Virus record (IMG/VR): IMGVR_UViG_3300021182_000070
Location: 1-20,970 of that record
Origin: a virus
Reading direction: 5' to 3' (one strand)
Length of the DNA: 20,970 nt
In this document: positions 2,694-20,899 of the stretch, one piece after another
How the letters are laid out: each line of letters begins with the position of its first letter
Numbering within the stretch: the first letter of the stretch is position 1
The notes under the pieces: generated by a model
What the model saw: the letters and a program-made list of their open reading frames with translations, nothing else
Told to the model about the DNA's origin: nothing
Database searches by the model: none
Position numbers and translations under genes: made by a program

Positions 2694-4286
2694 TTAACCG
2701 CGTTGGCCGATGTGACCAGGTAAGTACTTGCGGGTGTCTAGCGTGTCGATTGGTTTTGTCATGGGGATTCCGTCCGGCGTAAATCCGGTAATCTCATGTA
2801 TCATACCAGACGATGAGTCAAGAATTCTAGTTCCGACGGTTAGACCTTGTTTATTTTGACTGACTGGAGCAGGCATCGCAGCTGGGTCATACTGCGGTAC
2901 AAGGTTCTGTTCAGCTTTGTTCCTGAAGCGAGCAATCAAGCTGTCAAGACCCATCTGAGGTTTCCCTTCCATGATTCCCTGTGGCAGATTGAGCGCGTTC
3001 TGATTGATGTTCCTTGCAACAGGAGCTGCCATTGTCGTTGCATCAACAGGTTGATGATTTCCAAACTTGAATGCTTGCTGTAGCCAGTCAGGCAAATCTG
3101 TGGGCGTCATTGACAAAGCACTCGGTTCATCGTGATTGAACGTTGCATCTCGTCCACGTCCGTAGGCAGAACTTGAACCAGACAACATCTGTAGCGCAGC
3201 TTCTGGCGTGCCAGTTGGGCTTGCAGCTTCAGAACCCATTCCTCTCGCAGTAGCTGCAACTCCCTGGTTCTGTAGTGAACGAAGCAGAGGTGCTGTAGCT
3301 GGATTTGCTTGATATTGAGATAACGTGCTTGGAGCTCGATAACCAAGCGCCGGCAGAATTGCATGTGCTCCTGGAATGACAGCGTCAAAGCTTGGGTTCA
3401 CGTTCGTGTTCATGGGTACAGCACGTACGTCAGCCGACGCGTTATGATAGACTGATGAGCCTGAAGCTTGTCCAAGCGTCTGTACTGGTTGCTGAGCAGT
3501 CTGTTGAAGACGCTGAATGTTTGCATCAAGGAAGTCATGAGCACGCTCAATAGTTGAACGACTATCTTGAACACCTGGCGTTCTACTGTCAAGGTTAGCT
3601 ATCATCTTCTGCATCTCGTAAGCTTTTTGTGCCAACTGGTCTTGATTAAGACCCTTGAACGTAGGCGAAGCTGCAAGATATTCTGGAGTAATCATGTCAA
3701 TCACAGGATTAACATCACCCGTGTCTGAGATGTACTTCTTGAGGTGCTGGAGGTCTGATACACCAGCTGCGATGTAGTTATTTCTACCTATTGTCTGTGC
3801 GACAGCTCCAGCACCTCCTAATCCAGCACCGACAGCTCCTCCAACAGCAGCTCCACGTAGCCTGTCAGCTGTAGAGAGCGGGTTACCTTGAGCATCATAT
3901 GCTGTAGAACCACCTTGAAGTGCTCCGAGAGCACTTAGAGTTCCAACTTGACCAAGAGTTGAGCCGCCCTCTGTTGCAAGAGCTGGAACAATTCCACCTA
4001 CCAAATTACCAGCAAGAGCTAGCCCTGGGTGAGGAGCTTGTTGTCTGTTGACGTCAGCTGTGTTCAATCTGACTAAGTCATCATAGCTCAAGCCTGGGTC
4101 AGCTTGATAGCCGTTTCCAGAAGCCAGGTTGCCGAGTGAGTTCAGCGATGAGACAGCACCCGCCTTCAGCTGTGGATACCAACCAGCAGTTAGACCTTGA
4201 AGAGCTCCACTGGAGTAAGCATTGGTATATGGAGATGCTTGCTGTGCAAGATAATCTGCCATTCCATTTTGGTCAAAGAAGCCCAT
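2694..4286 (-). CDS. Ejection-type internal virion protein (paralogue B)
   Basis: 530 residues, low-complexity, rich in Ala, Gly and Gln. Residues 28-160 align with residues 61-195 of the next protein upstream (gene at 4556-5965): both carry a GL...P-Q-L-(K/G)-A segment, a Y-(D/N)-(D/S)-L-V motif, HP...G-N-(L/I)-V-G, a TL(S)-A-L-G-A-(L/I)-Q-G stretch, AYD-(A/E)-QGNP, and a glycine-rich amphipathic helix. Such GLT(A/F)G...YD...HP..GN..G segments are common in phage DNA-transfer proteins, which are packaged in the head and ejected to form a trans-envelope conduit; the P22 counterparts are gp7, gp16 and gp20. The C-terminal half is Ala/Gln/Pro-rich, and its end (LTVGTRILDSSSGMIHEITG) is more ordered. 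The Shine-Dalgarno sequence is weak, and the gene is cut off from its upstream neighbour by a plus-strand gene. Confidence 0.75.
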   Translation of the reverse strand: MGFFDQNGMADYLAQQASPYTNAYSSGALQGLTAGWYPQLKAGAVSSLNSLGNLASGNGYQADPGLSYDDLVRLNTADVNRQQAPHPGLALAGNLVGGIVPALATEGGSTLGQVGTLSALGALQGGSTAYDAQGNPLSTADRLRGAAVGGAVGAGLGGAGAVAQTIGRNNYIAAGVSDLQHLKKYISDTGDVNPVIDMITPEYLAASPTFKGLNQDQLAQKAYEMQKMIANLDSRTPGVQDSRSTIERAHDFLDANIQRLQQTAQQPVQTLGQASGSSVYHNASADVRAVPMNTNVNPSFDAVIPGAHAILPALGYRAPSTLSQYQANPATAPLLRSLQNQGVAATARGMGSEAASPTGTPEAALQMLSGSSSAYGRGRDATFNHDEPSALSMTPTDLPDWLQQAFKFGNHQPVDATTMAAPVARNINQNALNLPQGIMEGKPQMGLDSLIARFRNKAEQNLVPQYDPAAMPAPVSQNKQGLTVGTRILDSSSGMIHEITGFTPDGIPMTKPIDTLDTRKYLPGHIGQRG

Positions 4287-4312
4287 TATTTTTCACTTTC
4301 TAGTGTACATCC

Positions 4313-4320
4313 AATAAATA
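4313..4320 (+). promoter_or_regulatory. ATAAATA element upstream of the plus-strand gene
   Basis: Plus-strand AATAAATA, with the same core as the minus-strand elements but pointing toward the plus-strand gene at 4362. It sits 5 bases before a separate extended -10 sequence, so either element, or both, could drive that gene. Confidence 0.35.
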
Positions 4321-4324
4321 ATTG

Positions 4325-4333
4325 TGTTATAAT
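4325..4333 (+). promoter_or_regulatory. Extended -10 sigma70-type promoter for the plus-strand gene
   Basis: TGTTATAAT fits the extended -10 consensus TGnTATAAT exactly. A weak -35 candidate, TGTACA, lies 18 bases upstream (4304-4309), which is acceptable because extended -10 promoters tolerate poor -35 boxes. Transcription would begin near 4340, giving a leader of about 22 bases with AAGGAG before ATG 4362. Confidence 0.65.
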
Positions 4334-4361
4334 AACTTTGAGATTAACCAAGGAGAACATC

Positions 4362-4559
4362 ATGCACATACTTATCGGCTTAGCAATCTTAATACTACTG
4401 CTTCTAGTTTGCATCGACAAGAATTTTGTTTGTATATTCTGTTGGATATTTTACTACTTTGTGGGACCTATCTTACTAATCGTCAACCCGATTCTTGCTG
4501 GGATATTATCAATCATTTCGATTGTAATTGCAATCGTTTATTTTAATCGCCATCCCTAA
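4362..4559 (+). CDS. Small hydrophobic membrane protein, plus-strand moron
   Basis: 65 residues, the only convincing plus-strand gene. ATG 4362 is chosen over an in-frame upstream ATG because AAGGAG lies six bases before it and a TGnTATAAT promoter just upstream of that. Residues 2-18 are one membrane helix (ILIGLAILILLLLVC), a short D-K-N turn follows at 19-21, and residues 22-61 form one or two more helices (WIFYYFVGPILLIV and ILAGILSIISIVIAIVY), ending NRHP. There is no cleavable signal peptide. The base composition is clearly AT-richer than the neighbours, consistent with recent acquisition. Its last four bases overlap the end of the convergent ejection gene, so it fills the gap exactly. 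Candidate roles are superinfection exclusion at the inner membrane, a holin-like or antiholin-like protein, or a lysogeny-expressed moron; the sequence does not choose. Confidence 0.8.
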   Translation: MHILIGLAILILLLLVCIDKNFVCIFCWIFYYFVGPILLIVNPILAGILSIISIVIAIVYFNRHP

Positions 4560-5965
4560 CGATTTCCCGTCAAAGCACCCAACGTATCGTAAGCTGGTTG
4601 CATTTTCTCTTGAGCCATCTCATTGATGGCCTTAGCAACCGGTTGACCGTATGCATTCGTAGTCCAACGAACAGCGTTACCACCAACTTGAGCAGCTATC
4701 TGGTTGACGTATGGGTTTGCGATTGCATTTAATCCACCTACACTAGCTCCCTTGACAGCATTGAAAGCGCTCTTAAGTGCTCCTGTCTTGTTTCCAGAAG
4801 CATACTGTGCGATACCATTGATGACACCGTGTACGTCAATGGGAGCACCAGACCTAGCACCGAGAGCGTTCGCTATCTGGGGCACTTGGTCAGGAACTGA
4901 ACCTGTATAGCCAGGAGCGATTGAACCATAAATAGGATAATCACGAGCAGCTTTCAACGTGTCAATCATGTCAAATGCAAGTTCACGCGTGCTTGCATCA
5001 GCAGCTGCTGGAACATTGATGGGAATCTTACCACCCGTAGCTGCATAGGGATTGTAGCTCTTCGTGAAGGTTGAATATGAAAGGTCACTTGCACGTTCAC
5101 CAGCTGGCAGAATCATCTGTTTCTGTAGAAAATTCTTGTAAGCTATCTCATCAGGTAAGATACCACCGTTGAGCTTTGTCTGTACATCAGCATGCACCTG
5201 ATGTGCTAGCACATCAGGCATCTTCATTCCGTTGCCAGCATTTGCATCTTGAATGAACTTTGGAGTGATGATGTTCCTGATAGCTTGAAGGTCAGCCGGG
5301 TCTGTGCTAGTAGCAAGCTTTGACAGCTGAGAGATTGTATTGTCGATAGTAGCTTTCTTAGCCATAGCTGGGATAAAACCTAATCCACCTTCAACACCAC
5401 CTAGAACACCCCCTACTCCAGCACTTGACATGCGCTGTTGCCATGGAATCGGATTTCCCTGTTCATCATATGCTTGTGAAGCACCTTGAATAGCTCCAAG
5501 AGTTGACATCTTACCAATCTGTGCAAGAGCGCCTCCCCCAGCAGTAGTCGACGTTAGCGGTCCTGCTCCCACGATGTTGCCACCGAAGAACTCAAGTGGG
5601 TGAGCTTGCATACTCGCTCTTGCTTGCTCTTCTTGAGCTTTAACGAGCGAATTGTAGTCCATTCCAGGGATGGGCTTAAACCCTTCACCAGAAAAACCCT
5701 GAGCTAGAGCATTCTGTGCGCTCATTCTTGCTGCACCGAGCTGAGGTAGGAAACCAAGCGTAGCTCCCATACCAAGACCCTGTAGAACAGCTTGAGTCTT
5801 GCTCTCATCTTCGCTTGGTGGAGGAGCTGGAAACGCACTACCACCCGTCCTGTTAGTAGACAGCATCGCTGGAGTGAGCTGTGTACCCCCTACATCGCTG
5901 TAGTCACTTCCTTGAGCAGTAGGAGCGCTTATTTGAGTACCACCTACATCAGAATAGTCAGCCAT
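4556..5965 (-). CDS. Ejection-type internal virion protein (paralogue A)
   Basis: 469 residues. The start ATG shares one base with the preceding stop (TAATG), and GGGAG lies upstream, so it is translationally coupled to the gene at 5965-7533. The N-terminus holds a short tandem repeat: DYSDVGGTQ at residues 3-11 and again at 21-29. Residues 61-236 are homologous to residues 28-205 of the downstream protein, including HP...GN(I)VG at about 122-133, the TLGAIQGASQAYDEQGNP stretch at 155-172, a Gly/Val-rich helix at 181-196 and an (I)ITP(K/E) site near 233. The rest is Ala/Gly/Gln-rich with no visible enzyme motif. By composition, operon position and homology it is inferred to be a packaged protein ejected ahead of the DNA. 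No lytic transglycosylase motif was seen in any of the four ejection-type proteins. Confidence 0.77.
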   Translation of the reverse strand: MADYSDVGGTQISAPTAQGSDYSDVGGTQLTPAMLSTNRTGGSAFPAPPPSEDESKTQAVLQGLGMGATLGFLPQLGAARMSAQNALAQGFSGEGFKPIPGMDYNSLVKAQEEQARASMQAHPLEFFGGNIVGAGPLTSTTAGGGALAQIGKMSTLGAIQGASQAYDEQGNPIPWQQRMSSAGVGGVLGGVEGGLGFIPAMAKKATIDNTISQLSKLATSTDPADLQAIRNIITPKFIQDANAGNGMKMPDVLAHQVHADVQTKLNGGILPDEIAYKNFLQKQMILPAGERASDLSYSTFTKSYNPYAATGGKIPINVPAAADASTRELAFDMIDTLKAARDYPIYGSIAPGYTGSVPDQVPQIANALGARSGAPIDVHGVINGIAQYASGNKTGALKSAFNAVKGASVGGLNAIANPYVNQIAAQVGGNAVRWTTNAYGQPVAKAINEMAQEKMQPAYDTLGALTGNR

Positions 5966-7533
5966 TATTGACTCCCGATAACCTTAGAACCTGGATGAGC
6001 AGCCAGAGCTCGCTGTGCATTTTCAACAGGTACTTGGTGAGTAGAACCGTCTCGGTCAAGGATGATAACTGAGGTCTTGTTCTGTACAGGTGCTTGTTGA
6101 GCTGGTTGCTGTGCTTGTTGAGTTGGTTGCTGTGCTTGTTGAGCTGGTTGCTGTACTTGTCCAGCTTGCGCAGGAGCTTGTTCCTTAGGTTGTATCAGAG
6201 CACCGAGCGCATTTATCTTGTTTTGAATCATTGTCTGTTCAATTGGGTCTCTTGACTTAGCCTTTAGAACAAGCAAGTCAGAAATGTTTGACAGCACTCC
6301 CTTTGAAGTAGCAGGAACAGTTCCACCTGGTACAAGAACACCAGTAGTAGAAATGTTCGTATTTGACTTCAAAGCTTCATCATTTCTTTGCTTAGCTTGA
6401 GCAAGTTGAGCCCTGAACGTGTCTACATTACCACCCTTTGACAGGTCAACACCATATTGTGCAAGCTGAGGGCGAATCGCATCAAGTTGTTGATACGCAT
6501 CATTACCGATAAGCGAGCGCAACTTGTTGTCCATTTCACCTGCTGGCTTGAGCTGATAACCAGTTGGAAGACTGTTGACAATTTGAGTACCTTGATTGAA
6601 CAGCGTATCAGCAACCTTATTTGCAATAAGATTTTGACGAGAATGGTCAACGATTTCAGGGTCAGCAATGCGCAACATGTTCTTACGCTTGATTTCATCA
6701 CCATATGGGCCGTTCAAGATGTTTGCCCCCGTCATTGCACGAATCTGTCCTGAAGCTTCCGGATGGTCAGTAATTGCTTGTTCTTGAATTGCTTTTGTCT
6801 GAGTGCTATTGAGGTCAGAAAGCTGTGGTGAAGAGTTACCAGTGATACCTGCTTGACGAATCGTCTCAGAATTATTGTTAATCTGCTGTTGAGCTTGATT
6901 GAGCTCTGTCCACTTAGGTTGAGTAATCTCACCTTGAACCGCAGCATCAAGTCCCTTCCCACCTGCATACGGGAGCTGTGGAATTGGCATCTGTGGGTAA
7001 GCTTGCTTGAGCTTAGCTTGAGTTGAGTTCCAAGCAGCTTCCTCTTGTTCGGGTGGAAGGCTCTGAGCTTTCACTACCTGTGCAGCTAGACCTAGAGCTG
7101 TCTGTCCAAACCCATAAGCCTCAGTTGCGTTCTTTACCTGAGTCACTTGATTGTCAAGATGGCTTTTCCCGATAGCAAGAGCTGCATACGGTGAAGTTTG
7201 AGCTACCTTCGTGATGAGTCCAGGCATGTCATACTGCGGATTTCCAGCAGCATCAAGAGCAGGAGTTCCGTCAGCATTCTTCTTCAAGTAATCAGGAGCA
7301 GCATCCATTGCTGCTTGTTGGCCAAGAGCTTGATTTTGCTTCATCTGTGATTCTGCTACATAGCCGGGATTCTGGGCACGTAGATTTGCAGTAGTAGCAG
7401 ATGTCTGCTCAGTCTGTGGTCCAGCAATGTAGGCAGCATTTGCAGCTGCTACGTTTGCTTGTTGCGCTGTCAATCTTCCCTGGAGTATGTTATTACCCAG
7501 GGACATGAACATTTCGTCACCGGCATCAGCCAT
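5965..7533 (-). CDS. Ejection-type internal virion protein with Gln/Pro/Ala repeat
   Basis: 522 residues, starting at ATG 7533-7531 with AAGGAA overlapping the previous stop. The first two thirds are predicted mostly helical, with many Gln and Ala (LTAQQANVAAANAAYIAG at about 21-38). About residues 460-480 consist of a QQPAQQA heptad repeated three times, encoded by three 21-base DNA units, and form a flexible linker. The last 35 residues (VIILDRDGSTHQVPVENAQR to the end) are a small ordered domain of the V-I-L-X-D-X-(D/N)-G...H-X-V-P type that recurs at the C-termini of phage DNA-transfer proteins. No enzymatic motif is seen. By position between the gp7-type protein and two further ejection proteins it is inferred to be the gp20-type or gp16-type component of the conduit. 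Confidence 0.75.
   Translation of the reverse strand: MADAGDEMFMSLGNNILQGRLTAQQANVAAANAAYIAGPQTEQTSATTANLRAQNPGYVAESQMKQNQALGQQAAMDAAPDYLKKNADGTPALDAAGNPQYDMPGLITKVAQTSPYAALAIGKSHLDNQVTQVKNATEAYGFGQTALGLAAQVVKAQSLPPEQEEAAWNSTQAKLKQAYPQMPIPQLPYAGGKGLDAAVQGEITQPKWTELNQAQQQINNNSETIRQAGITGNSSPQLSDLNSTQTKAIQEQAITDHPEASGQIRAMTGANILNGPYGDEIKRKNMLRIADPEIVDHSRQNLIANKVADTLFNQGTQIVNSLPTGYQLKPAGEMDNKLRSLIGNDAYQQLDAIRPQLAQYGVDLSKGGNVDTFRAQLAQAKQRNDEALKSNTNISTTGVLVPGGTVPATSKGVLSNISDLLVLKAKSRDPIEQTMIQNKINALGALIQPKEQAPAQAGQVQQPAQQAQQPTQQAQQPAQQAPVQNKTSVIILDRDGSTHQVPVENAQRALAAHPGSKVIGSQ
6091..6153. repeat. Three tandem 21-bp units encoding QQPAQQA
   Basis: Units 6091-6111, 6112-6132 and 6133-6153 differ at only one base (the middle unit gives Thr for Ala). 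The frame is preserved at any copy number, so the linker length of this virion protein could vary between relatives. Confidence 0.85.
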
Positions 7534-7542
7534 GATTATTCC

Positions 7543-8397
7543 TTAGAAAGACATTAGAGTTGAGAGAATACCAGCATCTGCACCACCTGCTGAAGTACCA
7601 GGAGCTTGCATCGTACCGCCGAGACCTCCCAAAGTTCCGGTAGAACCAGAACCCCCAAATTGATTACCTACCCAGTTCGCGGCTGTATTAATGTTCTGTG
7701 GCGTTAGAGAGTTCATACTACCGGTCAAGCCAGAGTTCATCGCGTTCGTTGAACCAATCATTCCCTGTGCTTGTGCTGCACCCATACCCAACATGTAGTT
7801 ACCAGCAGACTGTGCTCCTGTCATGCCAAGATTTGCTACATTACTAGCAGCATTCAAACCTGTTGTACCTAGCTGGCCAGCAGTTTGTTGTCCCATACCA
7901 GCAAGATTTCCGAGACGTGAATAAGCAGTGTTCTGGTTATTCATGAAGCGGTTGTACGCAGCTTGATACTCTTGAGATGCAGCATCTTGCCCGTAGTTTG
8001 TGATATCCTTAGCACCTTGACCAGTTAAAAGTCCTCCACGAGCGGCCGCGCTTGCTTGTAGTGATTGTTGTCCCTGTTGAAGTCTCCACTGATAGCTTGG
8101 GTCTGTATAGAGCGAGCTTGGTGTAAATGTTTGAGTGAACTGTCCACCTGGTTGCATTCCAGCGGACATCTGTCCAACAGCACCCTGCCCAGCAGTCAAC
8201 CAGGGTTGATTGTAGCCGATGTTTGCTTGCTGTGCTGCATTGATAGCAGCAGTTCCGGAAGTAGTTGCTGCATTTACACCAGCAGCTGCATTACGTGCAG
8301 CTGTAGCTTTAGCATCAGCTGCATCTTGTGCAGCATTTGATGATTGACTACCCTCATATAGGCTCATTCCAATGTTTGCTGCTGCTGACCATCCCAT
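7543..8397 (-). CDS. DNA transfer / injection protein (P22 gp7-like role)
   Basis: 284 residues, ATG 8397-8395, with AGGAG overlapping the GNAT stop codon. The N-terminus (MGWSAAANIGMSLYEGSQSS) may form an amphipathic or membrane-inserting helix, followed by an Ala/Gln coil (about 20-60). The core is the signature of a widespread phage ejection-protein family: YTDPSYQWRLQQGQQSL (about 96-112), SAAARGGLLTGQGAKDI (about 116-132), NYGQDAASQEYQAAYNRF (about 134-151) and a SRLGNLAGMGQQTAG stretch. The remainder is Gly/Asn/Ala-rich. Proteins of this family are carried in the head and enter the envelope during infection. It heads a run of four ejection-type genes. The family assignment is strong; the match to P22 gp7 specifically is by size and gene order only. 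Confidence 0.85.
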   Translation of the reverse strand: MGWSAAANIGMSLYEGSQSSNAAQDAADAKATAARNAAAGVNAATTSGTAAINAAQQANIGYNQPWLTAGQGAVGQMSAGMQPGGQFTQTFTPSSLYTDPSYQWRLQQGQQSLQASAAARGGLLTGQGAKDITNYGQDAASQEYQAAYNRFMNNQNTAYSRLGNLAGMGQQTAGQLGTTGLNAASNVANLGMTGAQSAGNYMLGMGAAQAQGMIGSTNAMNSGLTGSMNSLTPQNINTAANWVGNQFGGSGSTGTLGGLGGTMQAPGTSAGGADAGILSTLMSF

Positions 8398-8408
8398 GTT
8401 CTTTACTC

Positions 8409-8864
8409 CTAGATAAGCTTCGTGTAAACTTTTTCAGTACACTTATAGTCAAAGTGTTCAAGCAACTTACTATTGTCGCTATAAACTTTTGTCCCCATGA
8501 TAATCTTCTTGACGCCCTTTTCCTTCAAGTGTCTCTCAAGTTCTGAGAACAACTTGATACCGATGCGTCCCTTGCGGTGTTCTTTCTTCACAAAGTAGAG
8601 GTCCTCAAATGCATGGAGGGTGCTCTTGTAGTGAAGGTGACCCTGTACTATCATTACTGCATAACCGATAAGTTCACCGTCCAACCGAACTGTCGTTACG
8701 TGCAAGATACCCATCGCGTCAAGTTGCTTGTACTTTTCCCAGTCAAGGTCAAGAGGAATCTCCTGGTAATTTCTACCTAGCTCCCTCCAGTGAACCTCAG
8801 CAAACGGCTTCAGCTCTTCCTCAATATCCGCCCAGTGTTCAACTTGATATGTGATAGTACTCAT
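8409..8864 (-). CDS. GNAT-family N-acetyltransferase (cargo gene)
   Basis: 151 residues beginning MSTITYQVEHW. A longer in-frame start at 8972 would lie inside the gp10-like gene, so ATG 8864-8862 is chosen: it follows the upstream stop by 19 bases. The fold order is visible: an N-terminal helix (ELKPFAEVHWREL), strands TTVRLDGELIGYAVMIVQGH and FEDLYFVKKEHRKG, the acetyl-CoA loop HRKGRIG (about residues 96-102) leading into a helix (IKLFSELERHLKEKGVKKI), then a strand and a C-terminal EHFDYKCTEKVYTKLI segment with the usual Tyr. Phage genes of this type sit among virion genes in several podoviruses, but their substrate is unknown. There is no good Shine-Dalgarno sequence; a promoter-like element touches the ATG, so a leaderless message is possible. 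Confidence 0.88.
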   Translation of the reverse strand: MSTITYQVEHWADIEEELKPFAEVHWRELGRNYQEIPLDLDWEKYKQLDAMGILHVTTVRLDGELIGYAVMIVQGHLHYKSTLHAFEDLYFVKKEHRKGRIGIKLFSELERHLKEKGVKKIIMGTKVYSDNSKLLEHFDYKCTEKVYTKLI

Positions 8865-8869
8865 ACTTC

Positions 8870-8877
8870 TATTTATG
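8870..8877 (-). promoter_or_regulatory. Putative T4-late-like promoter (CATAAATA) touching the GNAT start
   Basis: Minus-strand CATAAATA is centred in a 19-base gap (8865-8883) that is itself an inverted repeat, ACTTC-N9-GAAGT, between the gp10-like stop codon and the GNAT ATG. The ATG begins five bases after the core, so a start at the usual distance would give an almost leaderless message. Confidence 0.5.
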
Positions 8878-8883
8878 TGAAGT

Positions 8884-10680
8884 TTACTGATAACCAACCT
8901 CAATACACAGCACACTTGACAAGATACCAACCTTGACCGGGTCACTAGTTGAAACACGGAACACTCTGTCACGAGAAGTTCCTAGACGCTGCCAGCGAGC
9001 TCTCGTGAAGTACTCTCCAACCTTGCCCATGCGAGCTTCAATCGGGGGTCCCCAGGTCTTGCCGCCGTCGTTACTTATCTCAAGAAAGACCTTCGGGTTA
9101 ATCTGATTGTCAGGGAGAGACGTTGGTGAACTAGTTGACATCGTCAATTCTGTCTCGATGCCTATATACGGTGCTTGTGGGTCACCTGCACCCCACGTCA
9201 CATTGACGAAGGGAGGTGAAGTATAACCAGAGCCACCTGTATCAACGACAATACCTGCTAGATTATACGGTGCTGAGGCTCCGGTCAACAGAGCATGTCC
9301 TGTAGCTCCAGAACCACCTCCGCCCGTGAACGTTACTACAGGTGGAGTATTACAGATAAGACCAAGCGGAGCAAGTGAGTGACCCGGGTCTCCATAGATG
9401 GTAACGCTCTGAACTGAACCAGAAGTAGTTGTACCAGAACCAACAGAGTCAAGTCCCACACCGAACTCCATGTCTAGCTCGAGCATCTCGTAGAACACTC
9501 TGTTCAATGATGACGTGACGTGCGGTGTCTGTCTGATGCGAATGATGGGTTCACCGTTGTCAGTATAGTAGTTCATGTCCATCGAGTAGATGTTACCGCT
9601 TATATAGTCACCTACAAGGTGCTGGTTGTTCATGAACGTATGGCACTCAGCAAGGTTCCTGTCGGTAATACCGTTGATAGTTGACTGACGTTCATGCCAC
9701 ATCTGTGAAGACATGTCAAATACCCACGTGGTTTGACTGCCGGGACAGTTCAGCACATAGAAGTAGTGACCCTCATCTTGATAAGCATATGCTGTTGCTG
9801 CAGTCAGGTTAGTAATCTGCTGTAGCGCGAACTCAATAGCGTGATTTGACACCCGCACCGGTTGCTCGTTCTGAAGCATGAACACGACAGCGCCGCCGTC
9901 AGCGTTCGTACCCAACCAGAACACGGTGTTGTTCACCTTGTGCAGCGTGTGGGGTGCAAGACAACCGAACTGATTGAACTTACCGTCCTGACGTACGAAC
10001 GGAGTTGAACCTGACTGCCCTAAGTTGTACCAGACCTCAGTCGTCTTTGTACCGAATAGGTAGAGCTCTCTATTGTTGCTGATGAGCGAGACGATGTTGT
10101 CTGGATTACCTGCTTTTGCTGCAAGGTTCAACGGCAAGAAGTCATGTGAGTAAAGGTCACTGATGAAGTAGTACTGCGTACCCTTCTGGTTCAAGATGAA
10201 GTACCCATCTTGAAACGTGATGACATCAGCCGGATAGAAGTTCGGGTCAATGATATTATTGATTACTGGTACGCCGGCCAACGGGATATAATAGCCGTTC
10301 TGCCCATCAACAAGCATGACGTCAATTCCATTGTCAGTTATCGATACTGGACCAGTTGAAGTTGACAAGTTACCGGTGCACGTGATGGGGGTAAACAGAG
10401 GGCCAGATAAACGATAGACCTCATTGCCTGACACGACGAAGCACAAGTTGCTGTCATTCGAGGGAGTCCACATTGCTCTGACTGGGCCAAGCCCAATAGA
10501 CTGCACTAGACGCAAGCCAGGTGTTCCCATGAGAACAGCAGCTTCCTTTTCCTTGCCAGTTGCAAGCGGGTCAAGCTCTGGAAACAGATTAACCGTGCGC
10601 TGGCAATCAAACCTTCCGACACGAAGCGTATTGCTCGGGCCGATGAAATTCTGAAACTTTACCTTGTTTGTCTCAGCCAT
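8884..10680 (-). CDS. P22 gp10-like tail hub / packaged-DNA stabilisation protein
   Basis: 598 residues. The N-terminus has the family signature: FIGPSNTLRVGRFDCQRTVN, then LFPELD, a GK(E) run and GTPGLRLV (residues about 12-58), followed by GPVRAMW and FVVSGNEVYRL. Repeated Trp/Gly blades (EVWYNLGQSG, NTVFWLGTNADGGAVV, TTWVFDMSSQMWHERQS) suggest a propeller-like fold. The C-terminus (ISNDGGKTWGPPIEARMG ... WQRLGTSRDRVFRVSTSDP) is also typical. In P22, gp10 closes the portal channel below gp4. Compared with P22 gp10 (472 residues) this protein is long; the excess maps to residues about 412-505, an inserted Gly-rich beta segment with GGGGSGATGHA and GGSGYTSPP. The ribosome binding site is weak, and the start lies five bases after the previous stop, so coupling is likely. 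Confidence 0.9.
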   Translation of the reverse strand: MAETNKVKFQNFIGPSNTLRVGRFDCQRTVNLFPELDPLATGKEKEAAVLMGTPGLRLVQSIGLGPVRAMWTPSNDSNLCFVVSGNEVYRLSGPLFTPITCTGNLSTSTGPVSITDNGIDVMLVDGQNGYYIPLAGVPVINNIIDPNFYPADVITFQDGYFILNQKGTQYYFISDLYSHDFLPLNLAAKAGNPDNIVSLISNNRELYLFGTKTTEVWYNLGQSGSTPFVRQDGKFNQFGCLAPHTLHKVNNTVFWLGTNADGGAVVFMLQNEQPVRVSNHAIEFALQQITNLTAATAYAYQDEGHYFYVLNCPGSQTTWVFDMSSQMWHERQSTINGITDRNLAECHTFMNNQHLVGDYISGNIYSMDMNYYTDNGEPIIRIRQTPHVTSSLNRVFYEMLELDMEFGVGLDSVGSGTTTSGSVQSVTIYGDPGHSLAPLGLICNTPPVVTFTGGGGSGATGHALLTGASAPYNLAGIVVDTGGSGYTSPPFVNVTWGAGDPQAPYIGIETELTMSTSSPTSLPDNQINPKVFLEISNDGGKTWGPPIEARMGKVGEYFTRARWQRLGTSRDRVFRVSTSDPVKVGILSSVLCIEVGYQ

Positions 10681-11424: not shown

Positions 11425-12852
11425 TTAAGCCGCGGTTACAACGTTCGTCCAGGTGGTACCACCGTCCGTGTTGATGTACATCCTATCAGTAACTCCAGAG
11501 CCGGCTGTGTTCATGTAGAGCGAGCCTTGAGCAGCTGTTAGCGTAGGTGCTCCTGAGCCGAAGAATACACCAAGATTTGCAACTGACGAGAACATCAACC
11601 CTGCACCAGTTGTGCCTCCTGCAGGAACAGCAGTACTAGACAATAATGTAGCTGTTGAGCTCAGATCAAGTGCACCGTTCGTGTCAATGTACATGTCATA
11701 AACCCAGCTGATGACCGCGTCTGCTACACCTATGGGTGCATTCACCCAGATTTGTGCGCCACCTAGTTGAGAGTAACCAACTGCATAGCCGTTTCCTGAG
11801 TAGCGCCAGTCGCTGCCGTCCCAGTAAGCATTGGAACCGTAAGTTACACCCATTCCACCACCAGAGGTGATGAAGCCTTGTTCATCACCTGCATGATTGA
11901 ACTCAAGAATGTCAAGTCCAGACCACTTCGTAGAAACTGCGTTCGGGATACCCATGTTCCCAGACGTGAAGGTCTTGACATTGAAGATACCAGTCGGGTT
12001 AATTGAGGCATCGGTAGTGAAAGTAATGTCAGCATCAGCTACTCCGATGGGAGCAGACACAAAGGTATGACCGTCAGTGCTGTCTTGGTAGTATGCAAAT
12101 GAAGGTCCAGCTGCCTTGTACTTCCACGTGGTAGTAACTGCGTCAAAGTACGCATTCGAACCGAAGCAGAGCCCGGTATAAGCATTGCTTCCCACGAATC
12201 CCTGCGCTGAATCAGAGAACTCCAAGAACCCGATATCTGCTGGCCAGTTGCTCTTTGTACCAACTCCAATGGTAATCATGTCCTTGACCCAGAGGTCATT
12301 GTTAATCTGTGCATCACCTCCGGTGATTGTACCACCGGATGCAAAGTCACCGTTGTTGTACATCACACAGGATGCTGTTGGAGTCAGCGCAGCTCCAGCT
12401 ACACCAGCTGTTGCAAACAAGAATTGAATTGCATTGCCACCAATTTGTGCGATAGCTGATGCAGGTCCATTGAACTTATAGTGCATTCCGTCTGCAGCTG
12501 CGTAGACGTTAGCAGCTTGCATCATGTTCACACCGATGGCTGAGCCGACAAATCCTTGAGCAGCACCGTTACTAGCATACGTCTCCATGACGTTAGCAAT
12601 AGTACCACCAGCGAACGGGCTAAGAGCTCCACCCATGGCAAAGCTACCCGTGGGAGCTCCGCCTCCGATAGCGTGACCGTTCAGCGTGAAGGCTGAGTCA
12701 GGGAGCAAGCCGGTGTCAACATTGACACCGGTCTCATTGACCGTTACATTGACCTTATTGACTGGGCCGCCGTTGGCCTTGAAGCCGAACTCGCCGCCTG
12801 TTGCAACGTCTACGTTGTTTGAAGTTTCTACATTGGGAGCTGTGAGTGCCAT
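11425..12852 (-). CDS. Long head-fibre / decoration protein with three beta modules
   Basis: 475 residues with AGAGGGA before ATG 12852-12850. Residues 4-50 (TAPNVETSNNV, GGEFG, GGPVNKVNV, DTG) match the N-terminus of the next protein upstream and, over about 20 residues, the small 77-residue protein. Three related modules follow at about 87-170, 208-290 and 314-397; modules 2 and 3 share FGSNAYFD or YGSNAYWD, W-(K/R)-Y, and APIGVADA. Residues about 413-475 form a closing module (FFGSGAPTLTAAQGSLYMNT ... TDRMYINTDGGTTWT) also present in the 421-residue paralogue. These modules resemble those in phage fibre shafts. A shared N-terminus next to the coat gene suggests a common capsid-binding anchor, so a head fibre is favoured; a tail-fibre role remains possible. 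Confidence 0.75.
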   Translation of the reverse strand: MALTAPNVETSNNVDVATGGEFGFKANGGPVNKVNVTVNETGVNVDTGLLPDSAFTLNGHAIGGGAPTGSFAMGGALSPFAGGTIANVMETYASNGAAQGFVGSAIGVNMMQAANVYAAADGMHYKFNGPASAIAQIGGNAIQFLFATAGVAGAALTPTASCVMYNNGDFASGGTITGGDAQINNDLWVKDMITIGVGTKSNWPADIGFLEFSDSAQGFVGSNAYTGLCFGSNAYFDAVTTTWKYKAAGPSFAYYQDSTDGHTFVSAPIGVADADITFTTDASINPTGIFNVKTFTSGNMGIPNAVSTKWSGLDILEFNHAGDEQGFITSGGGMGVTYGSNAYWDGSDWRYSGNGYAVGYSQLGGAQIWVNAPIGVADAVISWVYDMYIDTNGALDLSSTATLLSSTAVPAGGTTGAGLMFSSVANLGVFFGSGAPTLTAAQGSLYMNTAGSGVTDRMYINTDGGTTWTNVVTAA

Positions 12853-12870
12853 GTTAAATTCCCTCTTAAT

Positions 12871-14136
12871 TTATGCTGCGTAATACGTGCCATTGATTGT
12901 AAGCAAGCCTTGAACTGAAGCTGCATCAGGAATATTTATTGATGCGTAGGTAGTTGTTGAGCCATCTGGTGTAAGTGAACCACACTTTGAAACTCCAAAG
13001 GCGTCAACAGCGACAGTAGAACCGCTCAGGAGCACGTCGAGTGAACCAGCAGCACCAGCTCTTGGAAGAGGTAGGTTCATCTTGACGCCTGGTAACGGGA
13101 AGATTGTCGTGATGGCAACCATCACAGTAAAGTACGTCAGCTTACCAACGCAAGTGTACTGTGCTTGAAGCGTTGTCCAGTCATAAGTACCCGCGAACGG
13201 TGCTCCACCCAACGTATAAAATGCTGGAGAAAAGCTAGTAGGAGGAACAATTGTCGGGTCACCAGATGAGAGAGGGTCCCAAGTAGTAGCTCCATCTGAG
13301 TTTACGTACAGACGGTCACTTGAAGTACCGTCTGACCTGAGATAGATTGAACCTTGAGCTGCTGCTACCGTAGGTGCACCTGAACCAGCAAAGATTCCGA
13401 TGCCAGCTACAGAGATGTATTGACTTACATCACCCCCTGCTGGAAGTGAACCACGAGCTGCTTGAAGATATCCGTCACAGTTGATAAAGTCACCGACGTG
13501 CAGAGGACCAGCATTGTACGAGTACGTAGGATAGAATATACACTGTGGGGCGAGAGTTGCAACAGCATCCTTTACACCGACAGGTGCAGTTTCAATCATT
13601 GTTTCACCACCGAACATGATGATGATTGAACCAGGACCGTCATTCTTGTAGCGAATGAACGTGCCGTCACTGTACAAGTTGTTTGCTAGAATTGAATAGT
13701 GTCCAGCTCCCGTTCCTGCTGTGCCAAAGACCGTCTGAACGCCCCCAGCGATGGTTTCCATCACCTCAGAGTTATAATTCCAACCTACGATGGGACCTGG
13801 AATCGAGAAGCTAGCAGTGGGAATTCCACCACCTCCACCTCCAACAGGTTGACCGTTCAATCTGAAACCCTCATCAGTAGGTGAGGAATATTGAAGGTCA
13901 CCGGTATAGAAGTCAATACCGTCCTTGCTCATCACCATCTTGCAGCGAGTGCCGTCAAGTCCTGGTGTAACGCTTGGGTTGGGTGCAACTAGAGTACCGG
14001 TGTCAAGGACGATGCCGTCCTCATTGCACTGAACGTTCACTCCGTTCAGGGGTCCGCCAATGAGCCCGGAACCAAATTCACCCCCGGTCATCGCTCCGAC
14101 GTTCTTTGAGGTTTCAATGTTGGGAGCTGTGTTCAT
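12871..14136 (-). CDS. Medium head-fibre / decoration protein with C-terminal beta domain
   Basis: 421 residues with AAGGA before ATG 14136-14134. Residues 3-46 are the shared anchor (TAPNIETSKNV, GGEFG, GGPLNGVNV, DTG). One copy of the repeated module lies at about 122-207 (VMETIAGG ... NNLYSDGTFIRYKNDGPGS ... APVGVKDA). Residues about 240-287 are the closing module (GIFAGSGAPTVAAAQGSIYL ... SDRLYVNSDGATTW). Unlike its long paralogue it then has about 120 more residues (299-421): a beta-rich domain with FAGTYDWTTLQAQYTCVGKL and a later INIPDAASVQG, of the kind that ends many phage fibres and may bind surface glycans. I infer a capsid-anchored fibre with an adhesive tip. Function is not proven by sequence. 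Confidence 0.75.
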   Translation of the reverse strand: MNTAPNIETSKNVGAMTGGEFGSGLIGGPLNGVNVQCNEDGIVLDTGTLVAPNPSVTPGLDGTRCKMVMSKDGIDFYTGDLQYSSPTDEGFRLNGQPVGGGGGGIPTASFSIPGPIVGWNYNSEVMETIAGGVQTVFGTAGTGAGHYSILANNLYSDGTFIRYKNDGPGSIIIMFGGETMIETAPVGVKDAVATLAPQCIFYPTYSYNAGPLHVGDFINCDGYLQAARGSLPAGGDVSQYISVAGIGIFAGSGAPTVAAAQGSIYLRSDGTSSDRLYVNSDGATTWDPLSSGDPTIVPPTSFSPAFYTLGGAPFAGTYDWTTLQAQYTCVGKLTYFTVMVAITTIFPLPGVKMNLPLPRAGAAGSLDVLLSGSTVAVDAFGVSKCGSLTPDGSTTTYASINIPDAASVQGLLTINGTYYAA

Positions 14137-14160
14137 CTTAAGTCCTTGCTATGTGAATGT

Positions 14161-14189
14161 GGTCAGTCAATCACAAAGACTGACTGACC
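14161..14189 (-). terminator. 9-bp hairpin between the first two head-fibre genes
   Basis: GGTCAGTCA and TGACTGACC form a perfect 9-bp stem around an 11-base loop, in the 84-base gap after the 77-residue gene. No U-run follows on the minus strand, so it is not a canonical intrinsic terminator. A partial terminator, an mRNA-stabilising 3' end or a protein-binding site are all possible. Confidence 0.4.
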
Positions 14190-14220
14190 AGAAGTATTCA
14201 TCACAACGCTAAGCTATTGC

Positions 14221-14454
14221 TTAGGAAGCTGCGATGATGCCCTTGGCGATGAGAGCTGCGAGAATTCCATTGACTGCTGTAGCAATCTCCGTTCCAGTAG
14301 CTGAGTCGCCGATGTTGGCGATGAGAGCTGCTTGCACGACTGAAGTGCCGTGGAATCCAGCTGGTTCCGAAGCCGAAGCTCCGACGGTTGCTCCGAAGAC
14401 TCCGCCAGTGACGGTGTCGACGTTCTTGCTGCCTTCTACATTGGGTGCTGACAT
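14221..14454 (-). CDS. Short head-fibre / decoration-type protein
   Basis: 77 residues with AAAGGA before ATG 14454-14452. Residues 2-22 (SAPNVEGSKNVDTVTGGVFG) are the shared anchor of the two larger downstream proteins. The remainder is small-residue-rich and ends in a predicted helix, ATAVNGILAALIAKGIIAAS; a similar V-N-X-(I/L)-L-A-A-L...G-I-I ending is common in short head-fibre-like proteins of podoviruses. It lies directly after the coat gene, the usual place for a decoration protein. I infer that it binds the coat lattice, possibly in many copies, competing with or complementing the longer forms. Hairpins flank it on both sides and may set its expression relative to the coat protein and the long fibres. 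Confidence 0.75.
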   Translation of the reverse strand: MSAPNVEGSKNVDTVTGGVFGATVGASASEPAGFHGTSVVQAALIANIGDSATGTEIATAVNGILAALIAKGIIAAS

Positions 14455-16726: not shown

Positions 16727-18910
16727 TCACTCTAATTCAGTTGAGTTCAAGTCATCACCCATTCCAGAATTGATATTTGGTTTCATGATTTCAATGTGAG
16801 CTGTAGCTCTATCAAGTATACCATGTTCAATTTCTGAAGCAGCTTTTACTCCAGTAATTGCCATTTTTGCTTCCTCAACCTTCATCTGACGTTCAGCCAG
16901 TTCAAGTTCTTTTTCCTTAATGAGGTACTCGAGTTCAATCTTTTGTTCCTCAAGTCTCATCTGGCGGTCCTTGACATCTTTGTCATTTTTCGCTTTTTCA
17001 AGGTCTACAGAGTTCTTTTGCTTGAGAATATTATTCTGTTCTTGTTCTAGACGTAGCTCTTTCTCAATGTTCTCGGCATGAGCATTAAGCGCTTGTAAAT
17101 GCTGATTATCCATTTGAATTTGTTGTTGCATCTGTTGAACTTGTTGTTCTAACATAGGCAAACGTTGTGCAGCATCCTTATCATCAAGTTCTCCTGAAGC
17201 TTGAAGTACTTGAAGCGGAACTTGAGTGCGCAGACGCTTTGCAATCAGCTGAGCTCCCGGCCAATCCATTTCAGCAGTAAGTAGGTCAGCAAACAGTGGG
17301 AGCGCATCAGGCTTCATCGCGCCGAGCTCCATCATCGACACGACAGCTTCCTGTCTACGTGAGCTGTATGATGGGCCGGTCTTGATGATGACGTCATACT
17401 TACCCGTTGTCAGGTCATGCTTCTTGCCCTTTTCGTCATACTGGTTGATGGCAACAATCTCTTGGTCATTGTTCGGCTTGACGATGCGAATCATGCGCGG
17501 GGTATCGTAGTACGACGGAATGACGTCAACTAAAATTCTACCGAGGTGCTTCAAGCTGCGCTTCAAGTTGTCAAAGTAGTGGAAGTTACTGGTACTCGTC
17601 TGAGCTTGTCTTGCTAGGATAGCTTTGCCAGATACTTCATTGCCCTGAGCACCTAGAGCTGGGTCATAGATACCCGTGATTGCCTTCATGTGGTCTGAAG
17701 CTTGAGCGAGAGTAGCACTGATAGCTTGAATCGGAGCTTCGAACGAGTTGCGCTGAGGAGGTCCAGCTGGTTGTCCATTGCTGTCCTTGCTGTTGTATGT
17801 TAAGAAGCCGTACGGAACGATGTTAGCATCACGCCACTCGTGCTCATGTCCAGCGAACTGACCCTCAGCTCCAATCCAGGGAGCTAGCGCTGACAAGCTC
17901 ACAACCTGCATCTGCTGGTTGCTGAAGAAGTTCAGTGACTTCTGAGCTCCCTTAGCACCGCGAATCAGGCCAGACTTAAACTTCTTGCCCTCAACCCAGA
18001 ACTCATCTCCCTTGACTGGGATGATGGGGATGTGCTGTCCTGGCCACTCGGTTTCTTCTAGAATCTCGATGCCGTTGATGAGCAGGTGCTTGACGTACGG
18101 AACCCAAACGTCACGTTCGCGCATGACATCAAACGTGTCTTCGTCATCTGGTTTAATCTTACTGATGAAGACCGTCTCAGTCAACTTGTTCTTGACCTGG
18201 TAGAGAACTTCCTTCTTCCAGTCCTTGTAGTAGTACTCAGCAATGCGTACCGTCGAGTCAGTCAACCAGCCGTCAATCGATGAGCTAGTTAGCTCCCAAC
18301 CTGTCGTGACGTACTCACTGTCTGGGTACTTGCGCTCGAACTCATCCTTCGACAGAGCATCTACGATGAACGCGAAGTCAGCGTCTGACCCGTCAGGTTC
18401 TGAGCTGTTGGGGTCAATGAAGACTGAAGCTGGGTTCGGGATGGTCTTGATGATGAGCTTCTGGTCAAAGCTGTCATCAGCTTCATACTCAGATGTAACT
18501 CGAATGAAGCCTTCACCGATGGCAGCCGCGTACCAAGCAGCATTGTCATAGGCGGTATCTGCGTTGCTGTCATATTCGATGTGACGAATCAAGCCACCGA
18601 TGACCTGTGCGGTGTCTATGTCAGCACCGTCACCTACTGGGTTAACCTCGATTGACGGGCGATTTTGACGTCCCTCATTTGTGATTTGACGTAGGAACGA
18701 GGGTAGACGATTGAACGTTTCACAGGGTTGACCTGAGTTCTCACGTTCTACCTTAGCTTGATTGTCCCACTGGTCACCGGAGATGAAGCGTAGGTCATCC
18801 TGTGCATCGATGCGAAACTGCTTCTCAGCACCGTTACAGAGCTCGAAGCGCTTGAGAGCTTCATCAATGCGGGTGTCCTTGACGGGTGCTGCGGGTGTCT
18901 TCTTAGCCAT
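16727..18910 (-). CDS. Portal protein, P22 gp1 family
   Basis: 727 residues, close to the 725 of P22 gp1, with AGAGGAA before ATG 18910-18908. The start of the core is typical: FELCNGAEKQFRIDAQDDLR, then FISGDQWD, ERENSGQPCETFNRLPSFLR and a conserved (I)TNEGRQNRPSIEVNPVGDGA stretch (about residues 22-115). Further matches include IEYDSNADTAYDNAAWYAAA and GEGFIRVTSEYE. Near residues 430-475 lies a helical segment with ITGIYDPALGAQGNEVSGKA, the usual portal wing/stem region. Residues about 580-705 form a long Gln/Glu/Lys coiled coil (EQQVQQMQQQIQMDNQHLQA; LEEQKIELEYLIKEKELELA), matching the internal barrel of P22-type portals. Twelve subunits would form the DNA channel. It is separated from the terminase by a 35-base gap with its own promoter-like element. 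Confidence 0.93.
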   Translation of the reverse strand: MAKKTPAAPVKDTRIDEALKRFELCNGAEKQFRIDAQDDLRFISGDQWDNQAKVERENSGQPCETFNRLPSFLRQITNEGRQNRPSIEVNPVGDGADIDTAQVIGGLIRHIEYDSNADTAYDNAAWYAAAIGEGFIRVTSEYEADDSFDQKLIIKTIPNPASVFIDPNSSEPDGSDADFAFIVDALSKDEFERKYPDSEYVTTGWELTSSSIDGWLTDSTVRIAEYYYKDWKKEVLYQVKNKLTETVFISKIKPDDEDTFDVMRERDVWVPYVKHLLINGIEILEETEWPGQHIPIIPVKGDEFWVEGKKFKSGLIRGAKGAQKSLNFFSNQQMQVVSLSALAPWIGAEGQFAGHEHEWRDANIVPYGFLTYNSKDSNGQPAGPPQRNSFEAPIQAISATLAQASDHMKAITGIYDPALGAQGNEVSGKAILARQAQTSTSNFHYFDNLKRSLKHLGRILVDVIPSYYDTPRMIRIVKPNNDQEIVAINQYDEKGKKHDLTTGKYDVIIKTGPSYSSRRQEAVVSMMELGAMKPDALPLFADLLTAEMDWPGAQLIAKRLRTQVPLQVLQASGELDDKDAAQRLPMLEQQVQQMQQQIQMDNQHLQALNAHAENIEKELRLEQEQNNILKQKNSVDLEKAKNDKDVKDRQMRLEEQKIELEYLIKEKELELAERQMKVEEAKMAITGVKAASEIEHGILDRATAHIEIMKPNINSGMGDDLNSTELE

Positions 18911-18931
18911 GTAGAGTTCCTCTAGAGTACT

Positions 18932-18939
18932 TATTTATA
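18932..18939 (-). promoter_or_regulatory. Putative T4-late-like promoter (TATAAATA) before the portal gene
   Basis: An exact TATAAATA on the minus strand, seven bases after the terminase stop codon and preceded by CCCAC. No -35 box is found 17 bases upstream. A start six to seven bases later leaves a short leader with AGAGGAA. Confidence 0.55.
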
Positions 18940-18945
18940 GTGGGC

Positions 18946-20436
18946 TCAGCGCCACCTAGCTTGTGGAACATTTCCACCCTCGACCTTACCTGAATAAACT
19001 GGCTTGCACATCGCGACGTCATAGCCCGAATTTGACAGATATCTGAGACAATCGAGGAGATGGTCGTCCTTCTTGATGATGTGTCCCTTCTCATCACGAC
19101 GATAGAGCCTGAACTCATGCATCAGCATCGGTAGATTATCAAAGAACTTGAGCTTACCTGTAGAGAGCTGTTCCCAGACAGAGTAGATACCTGATTCAAC
19201 AGCGTTCTTGGCTGGTTCAAGGTGTAGACCTCGCTCAACATACTGGTCAAACAGACGCTTACCGTCATCCTGTCCACGACCTCTTGATGCTGGGTCGATG
19301 ACGCCGGGAATCCAGTCTCCTCTCGCCTTGATAGCATCAGCATGAATGATGGGTAGCTCTCCGCCCATCTTGTGCTCTGAGTGAATGTACTTGACGCCTG
19401 ACTCTGGGTCAATTGCTACCCACAGAGCGGCTGTCGCATTCCAACCCACGTCGAGCGCATATGCACGCTTCCAGTGCTGGGGTATCGGGAAAGCTGGTAC
19501 GATTAGACTCGTCTCTGGTACAGGGTAGACCGCTCCTGAACCCAGCTGTGGAATACCTCTTGAACGAGCATCACGCTGGTGAGGAGGAAGCGACGCGAAC
19601 ATCGTCTTCTTCTGGTCCTCAGACAAGTGAGGTGCATCATCCCACGTAGCTGACACGATGCACTTGCTTGGGTCCTTGCCCTCCTTGAAGCTTTGAATCA
19701 GGTTAGTCATGCCCATGAGGGGAGTGAACGTCATCATGACCTGACCGTTCGTCGTCATGGTACGCAGCAAGCACTCCTCATAGATGTCATCTGGGCACTC
19801 TTCGTCAAGCCAGATGAAGTGTCGGGCAGTACCCTGGAAGGTTTCACGTCCCTGGCTGTATGACTTCATCTGGATAGTAGAAGTTCCACCTGAAATGTGC
19901 TTCACGAACACGTTGTCCATGTAGCTCAGACCAGCGCCCTTCTTCGTTGACAGGATGGTCTCACCTGGAAGCATTCCAGTACCGAACTCGCTTGGCTTAC
20001 CGAGTAACTCCATCTGGAGAATGTCAAATACAGTCTTTGAGTTCTCACCTGCAATCCAGATGTCAACCGGGTTGTCAAACTTGATACCAGGCCACCAATC
20101 TGGATAGATGCCTGTAGCGTGACATGTTACTTCAAAAGCCCCTGCTTGAGTCTTTCCGACACGGTTAGCAGCGATAAAAGCTCTCTGGTTGTGAGTAAGT
20201 CCAGTAGCAAAGAAATCGAGGTGCTTTGCATATCCAGAACGTGGATTATCACCGTAGGTTGGAAAGTAGCTGTAGAACTTGCGCAGCTTGTTGCGACGTA
20301 GGAGCTCTTCTACTAGCTCTAGCAAGTCTTGCTTATCCTCAATGGATACGTTCGTGAGATTGGGGACGACCGAGACAGCTCGACTGACCTCTTGAGCTCT
20401 AAGAGTTAACTCTAATTGAATTGACTCATAGCTCAT
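18946..20436 (-). CDS. terL: Terminase large subunit (packaging ATPase and nuclease)
   Basis: 496 residues (P22 gp2 has 499). The start ATG overlaps the small-subunit stop by four bases (ATGA). Walker A is ANRVGKTQA at residues 90-98, Walker B is FIWLDEE at 207-213 with the catalytic Glu following Asp211, and the coupling motif is TFTPL at 236-240. The RNase H-like nuclease has its acidic residues in YALDVGW (Asp329), VIDPASRGRGQDDG (Asp381) and DDHLLDCLRY (Asp457, Asp458, Asp462). All active-site groups are therefore present. The protein docks on the portal, pumps DNA into the procapsid and cuts it. The P22-type sequence suggests headful packaging, but the cutting mode depends on the small subunit and is not certain. 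Confidence 0.95.
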   Translation of the reverse strand: MSYESIQLELTLRAQEVSRAVSVVPNLTNVSIEDKQDLLELVEELLRRNKLRKFYSYFPTYGDNPRSGYAKHLDFFATGLTHNQRAFIAANRVGKTQAGAFEVTCHATGIYPDWWPGIKFDNPVDIWIAGENSKTVFDILQMELLGKPSEFGTGMLPGETILSTKKGAGLSYMDNVFVKHISGGTSTIQMKSYSQGRETFQGTARHFIWLDEECPDDIYEECLLRTMTTNGQVMMTFTPLMGMTNLIQSFKEGKDPSKCIVSATWDDAPHLSEDQKKTMFASLPPHQRDARSRGIPQLGSGAVYPVPETSLIVPAFPIPQHWKRAYALDVGWNATAALWVAIDPESGVKYIHSEHKMGGELPIIHADAIKARGDWIPGVIDPASRGRGQDDGKRLFDQYVERGLHLEPAKNAVESGIYSVWEQLSTGKLKFFDNLPMLMHEFRLYRRDEKGHIIKKDDHLLDCLRYLSNSGYDVAMCKPVYSGKVEGGNVPQARWR

Positions 20437-20752: not shown

Positions 20753-20826
20753 TGGAGCGTGTATGGGGAATCGGACCCCAGTAATAGGTTTGGAAGACCT
20801 CTGCTTTACCATTAAGCTATACCCGC
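20753..20826 (-). tRNA. tRNA-Gly (anticodon TCC)
   Basis: The minus strand folds as a cloverleaf: acceptor GCGGGTA with TACACGC (one G-A mismatch at 4-69), D arm GCTT-AATGGTA-AAGC, anticodon loop CTTCCAA giving TCC, and T arm TGGGG-TCCGATT-CCCCA. The discriminator is T and a CCA end is encoded (20755-20753). The 5' end resembles bacterial glycine tRNAs. The T loop has C where T is usual at position 55, and the anticodon stem has a mismatched outer pair. It is probably functional, supplying GGA/GGG decoding for the glycine-rich virion proteins. Confidence 0.88.
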
Positions 20827-20899
20827 GGCAGCCCTGCTTGGAATCGAACCAAGGACAAGAGATTCAAAATCTCTTGTGATACCATTTCACTACAGAGCA
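20827..20899 (-). tRNA. tRNA-Gln (anticodon TTG)
   Basis: The minus strand folds as acceptor TGCTCTG with CAGGGCT (pair 1-72 open, which is also weak in bacterial glutamine tRNAs), D arm GTGA-AATGGTA-TCAC, anticodon arm AGAGA-TTTTGAA-TCTCT giving TTG, and T arm CTTGG-TTCGATT-CCAAG. The discriminator is G73, an identity base for glutaminyl-tRNA synthetase. Only CC of the 3' end is encoded; the next base is the first base of tRNA-Gly, so cutting between the two must be followed by addition of A. Glutamine is abundant in the ejection proteins. Confidence 0.9.

Follow-up and report, generated by a model that had tools for sequence, protein, structure and literature searches.

We detected a small gene on the plus strand of a viral record of 20.97 kb (IMG/VR record IMGVR_UViG_3300021182_000070), the whole of which is referred to here as the window and in which all other credible genes lie on the minus strand. 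Its product, MHILIGLAILILLLLVCIDKNFVCIFCWIFYYFVGPILLIVNPILAGILSIISIVIAIVYFNRHP, is a protein of 65 aa that is nearly all hydrophobic. That this ORF is a real gene is well supported, and its sequence features likewise give good support to its reading as an independently expressed membrane moron. Judged by its sequence, the window belongs to a P22-like podovirus distantly related to Salmonella phage P22 and is probably a fragment of the late operon. By analogy with P22, we give close to even chances to the suggestion that the gene is a minimal exclusion moron of the SieA type, which would block the DNA entry of related phages through their gp16/gp20-type conduit.

Coordinates of the 65-aa gene, its putative expression signals and the neighbouring ejection genes in the window
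Feature	Position	Strand	Basis
65-aa membrane-protein ORF, candidate exclusion moron	4362-4559	+	ATG 4362, TAA 4559
Ribosome-binding site AAGGAG	4350-4355	+	6 nt 5' of ATG 4362
Promoter-like site	4304-4333	+	TGTACA 4304-4309, 18-nt spacer, extended -10 TGTTATAAT 4325-4333; consensus match
Paralogue of gp16-type gene, divergent from the 65-aa ORF	2694-4286	-	35% identity over 184 aa to 4556-5965
gp16-type ejection (DNA-transfer) protein gene	4556-5965	-	phrog_5880; position after gp7-type and gp20-position genes
gp20-position ejection gene	5965-7533	-	Order compared with P22 and relatives only
gp7-type DNA ejection protein gene	7543-8397	-	phrog_598, common to P22 gp7

The initial annotation had placed a plus-strand ORF at 4287-4559; the ORF is present, and those coordinates proved to be the whole intergenic gap, of which the ORF itself takes up 4362-4559. 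The other structural claims of that annotation were borne out. The ORF fits the gap between two minus-strand genes, the left one beginning at 4286 and the right one terminating at 4556, and its stop codon overlaps that of the convergent gene by 4 bases (4556-4559). It is the only credible gene opposed to all the others, and none of the other plus-strand ORFs of at least 50 aa in the window has a ribosome site at its first start codon. AAGGAG stands at the ideal spacing described, and the perfect extended -10, TGTTATAAT, is the sole TGnTATAAT on both strands of the window, where 0.25 would be expected; the accompanying -35 matches at 4/6 positions.

Shuffling of the gap and of its 75-nt leader indicated how often such features arise by chance. 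An ORF of at least 65 aa appeared in 3.8% of 20,000 dinucleotide shuffles of the gap, and one accompanied by a ribosome site and coding for at least two membrane segments in 0.01% of them (1/10,000, or 1e-4). In leader shuffles the promoter alone arose at a frequency of 0.005, the ribosome site alone at 0.002 and the two jointly in 0/50,000, and T at codon position 2 (39/65 codons) had P = 5e-5 in mononucleotide shuffles. The synonymous codon choice of the ORF is unlike phage usage and would not be unusual in a random sequence of like composition (P = 0.30); the case for coding is accordingly carried by the other tests. The mismatch with phage usage fits a foreign gene and gives no independent proof of coding. 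An AT-rich spacer with an accidental open frame would share that random-like codon choice, and the ORF is without a homologue on which conservation could be tested, but the rarity of the combined features, the position-2 bias and the correct placement of promoter and ribosome site make such an accident very improbable.

The composition of the gene sets it apart from its surroundings. Its GC content is 0.34, outside that of the resident genes, in line with the AT-richness first noted, with a window mean of 0.49; the lowest-GC 198-bp stretch of the window begins at 4261 (GC 0.31), and the synonymous codon score of the ORF is lower than that of all 1,054 resident 65-codon windows. This foreign GC and codon use would fit a newly acquired gene. 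As for flanking repeats that might be insertion scars, we found one 12-bp pair only, outside the gap.

The portal, gp10-type and terminase proteins led us to relatives of the window; searches with the two ejection-gene paralogues returned none in viral contigs, genomes, phages or plasmids. The slot is empty in the closest relatives found (L085, L276, L277 and L279): in L085, with a gp10-type protein 53% identical to that of the window, 19 bp separate the gp16-position gene from the next gene, in L276 and L277 the next gene is directly adjacent or shares one base, and L279 has 124 bp. The initial annotation had called for this comparison and held that a degraded reading frame in the same gap would count against the gene; the close relatives lack the gene and have too little DNA there for a decayed frame. 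A scan of 56 partly redundant loci, among them the window and P22, each with 3.5 kb or more of sequence downstream of a gp7-type gene, yielded no further opposite-strand ORF that combined a ribosome site with two membrane segments; P22 sieA was counted there among large ORFs. One locus, L133, carries a 290-aa opposite-strand ORF of no clear family after its gp16-position gene (18241-19113, minus strand), possibly different cargo in the same slot. Together with the opposite strand, the gene's own promoter and ribosome site (as sequence signals only), a composition unlike that of its neighbours and its absence from the four relatives support the independent membrane moron originally proposed.

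Two membrane segments were predicted in the 65-aa protein by hydropathy and three helices (2-18, 20-41 and 43-63) in a single-sequence AlphaFold2 model (pLDDT 81, pTM 0.56), in agreement with the two to three helices first suggested. If the protein has a three-helix, N-out, C-in topology, the positive-inside rule would place both K20 and R63 in the cytoplasm. Foldseek gave no significant structural match to the model, no family match was found in PHROGs (E 0.1), Pfam, PADLOC or NCBIfam, and no homologue of the ORF was detected in viral contigs, phages or all small ORFs of the fetched loci.

The neighbouring genes place the ORF within an ejection-protein cluster. The portal, coat, gp10-type and gp7-type ejection proteins match the PHROG families of those parts, and the operon runs from the gp7-type through the gp20-position to the gp16-type gene and then to the convergent ORF. 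The gene in the gp20 position had no PHROG family match above noise; phrog_5880 is common to the gp16-type gene and the gp16-position genes of L085 and L276, of which that of L085 also has a transglycosylase domain. Because the gene at 4556-5965 is of the gp16 type and that at 2694-4286 is its paralogue, the ORF lies between two gp16 paralogues and is convergent with one of them; the close relatives examined have a single gene where these two flank the moron. A GNAT acetyltransferase gene (8409-8972, minus strand) stands between the gp10-type and gp7-type genes, and a similar gene occurs in the same region of L133, L137, L169 and L185; since the listed GTG start lies within the preceding gene, translation more probably begins at an internal ATG.

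This arrangement resembles that of sieA. The sieA gene of P22 runs against the late genes, converges with gene 16 and has its own annotated promoter; the type-B sieA of E. coli HS (HS1) is placed likewise, with 21 bp between it and gene 16, and each of the two genes is richer in AT than its phage. All sieA genes studied in detail occur between genes 16 and 9, P22 SieA resides in the inner membrane and its block of DNA injection is overcome by gp16/gp20 mutations, and SieA exclusion has been reported solely from enterobacterial P22-like phages and prophages (PMC10883804). Our ORF occupies the same interval, which separates gene 16 from the tail genes; it immediately follows the gene-16-type gene and converges with it from the opposite strand. 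This assignment rests on 4556-5965 being gp16-type via the family common to relatives. It also shares with SieA an apparent promoter of its own, AT-richness relative to its phage, the character of a membrane protein and a last helix followed by F-x-R-(Y/H)-P. The two differ in length (65 aa versus 163-212 aa), and our protein has no large charged loop separating helices 1 and 2, ends its motif after FNRHP and has neither a PHROG match nor a significant alignment to SieA; there is no mnt/arc/ant region beside the ORF, and a gp16 paralogue comes next instead of the tailspike.

On present evidence we would not count the 65-aa protein as a member of SieA. The SieA profile phrog_7745 did not match it at E 0.1, while P22 SieA matches at 2e-108; for a family of 162-212 aa with three or four helices, its number of helices is possible and its length is not. 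The SieA motif FxRYPxEAxxFNK is lacking, since the terminal FNRHP of the protein agrees with only the F, R and P among its first five positions. BLASTP against P22 SieA gave E 0.10 in a two-sequence comparison, with the match falling on SieA 114-148, that is, the last helix and the start of the conserved C-terminal motif, and MAFFT with types A and B laid the ORF along TM2-TM3, with FNRHP against FGRYP and FNRYP. In local alignments with layout-keeping shuffles, P was ~0.04 for type A and 0.145 for type B; an HMM of four SieA proteins placed the ORF no higher than ordinary hydrophobic ORFs, and hhalign against SieA gave 4% probability. On these values homology to SieA is not claimed. F.R.P occurs in 9/1,575 ordinary hydrophobic ORFs and the likeness of FNRHP was noticed after the fact, so we treat the resemblance to FxRYP as a lead without statistical support and not as homology. 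It is quite unlikely that the ORF is a reduced SieA, made up of its TM2-TM3 hairpin and FxR(H)P tail and reached by divergence or by convergence; if it were, ~65 residues would be enough to jam a P22-type ejection conduit, in a phage remote from the enterobacterial ones known to carry SieA.

The superinfection exclusion suggested in the initial annotation becomes more specific with the sieA slot beside a gp16-type ejection gene, and we still infer the function from position, architecture and analogy. The accompanying description of an undescribed function was not quite right, because the slot already has a described one in SieA. In the mechanism we propose, host polymerase would transcribe the moron from its own host-type promoter while the minus-strand late operon is silent, in a prophage or early in infection. 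The protein, with its two to three helices, would insert in the inner membrane and hinder the assembly or function of the gp16/gp20-type conduit that a related phage builds on entry, in the manner of P22 SieA. The moron would later be silenced by antisense transcription of the late operon, and self-exclusion would be avoided if the protein acts on incoming virions and not on the phage's own late assembly. Expression, membrane insertion, exclusion and target are all putative. In favour of exclusion are the gp7 and gp16 families identified on the same side of the ORF, the slot and orientation of the sieA genes of P22 and HS1 and the weak alignment to the last SieA helix; against it are the lack of a homologue, of a SieA profile match and of significant HMM or hhalign kinship, and the finding of no lysogeny evidence within the window and no integrase in the contig of L085. 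A tyrosine integrase is present in the genome of L277.

Other functions would also suit a small hydrophobic protein. Many small phage membrane proteins act in exclusion or lysogenic conversion on a host receptor, a host inner-membrane entry protein or other phage types (PMC11436027; PMC10883804), and our protein could do the same, its sequence fixing no target and its kinship with SieA not being established; we consider this somewhat unlikely, as the slot beside the ejection genes, common to sieA, favours the ejection conduit. Its two to three helices in 65 aa are also of small-holin size, and no lysis genes were seen in the window fragment, where a holin or antiholin might have come to lie on the other strand by happenstance. 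Small holins usually have a charged C-terminal tail. The protein ends instead in NRHP without one, has no holin family match and, being antisense to the late operon with an apparent host-type promoter, would be made when lysis is harmful, whereas the annotated holin in relatives is co-directional with the late genes and downstream of the tail genes, so this role is very unlikely. The same low probability applies to a membrane-active toxin or other host-takeover peptide, which would agree with a short, very hydrophobic protein with its own promoter but finds neither a toxin family match nor an adjoining antitoxin gene; a weak minus-strand promoter-like site within the ORF is at chance level.

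Beyond SieA, the closest parallels to the proposed exclusion are HK97 gp15 and T4 Imm, whose presumed site of action on incoming phage DNA is the inner membrane (PMC10883804, PMC11436027). By description they are small membrane exclusion proteins that block DNA entry, as proposed for the 65-aa protein; they belong to long-tailed phages and lie at other genome positions. EBPR podovirus 1 gp24 (JF412294; L069:24363-24527, minus strand) is an opposite-strand ORF of 54 aa that likewise has a 4-base overlap with the end of a long gene downstream of a gp7-type gene; it differs in its single predicted helix, hydrophilic C-terminus, GC-rich DNA and lack of a detectable ribosome site, and may not be a gene. 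Membrane exclusion morons are already known, and what is new here is probably a much smaller, unrecorded occupant of the sieA slot. Finding it in a remote P22-like phage from the environment suggests that the position following gene 16 may be a general home for injection-blocking morons. How SieA exclusion tolerates great variation in SieA and its targets is an open question (PMC10883804), and the 65-aa protein offers a minimal protein for testing the exclusion mechanism.

Several other features of the window, all on the minus strand, were observed. Approximately residues 413-527 of the gp10-type protein (8884-10680) form an additional segment missing in relatives, which match residues 1-412 and 528-596; this segment is similar to portions of baseplate and virion proteins in PHROGs. 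At 11425-14454 are three tandem genes with a similar N-terminus (APNVE.SKNV), two of them paralogous over longer stretches (34-36% identity). The start of a protein with collagen-like GPTGP repeats, a probable tail fibre, runs off the window end at 2-469, and two tRNA genes, Gly-TCC and Gln-TTG, lie upstream of the terminase region at 20753-20899.
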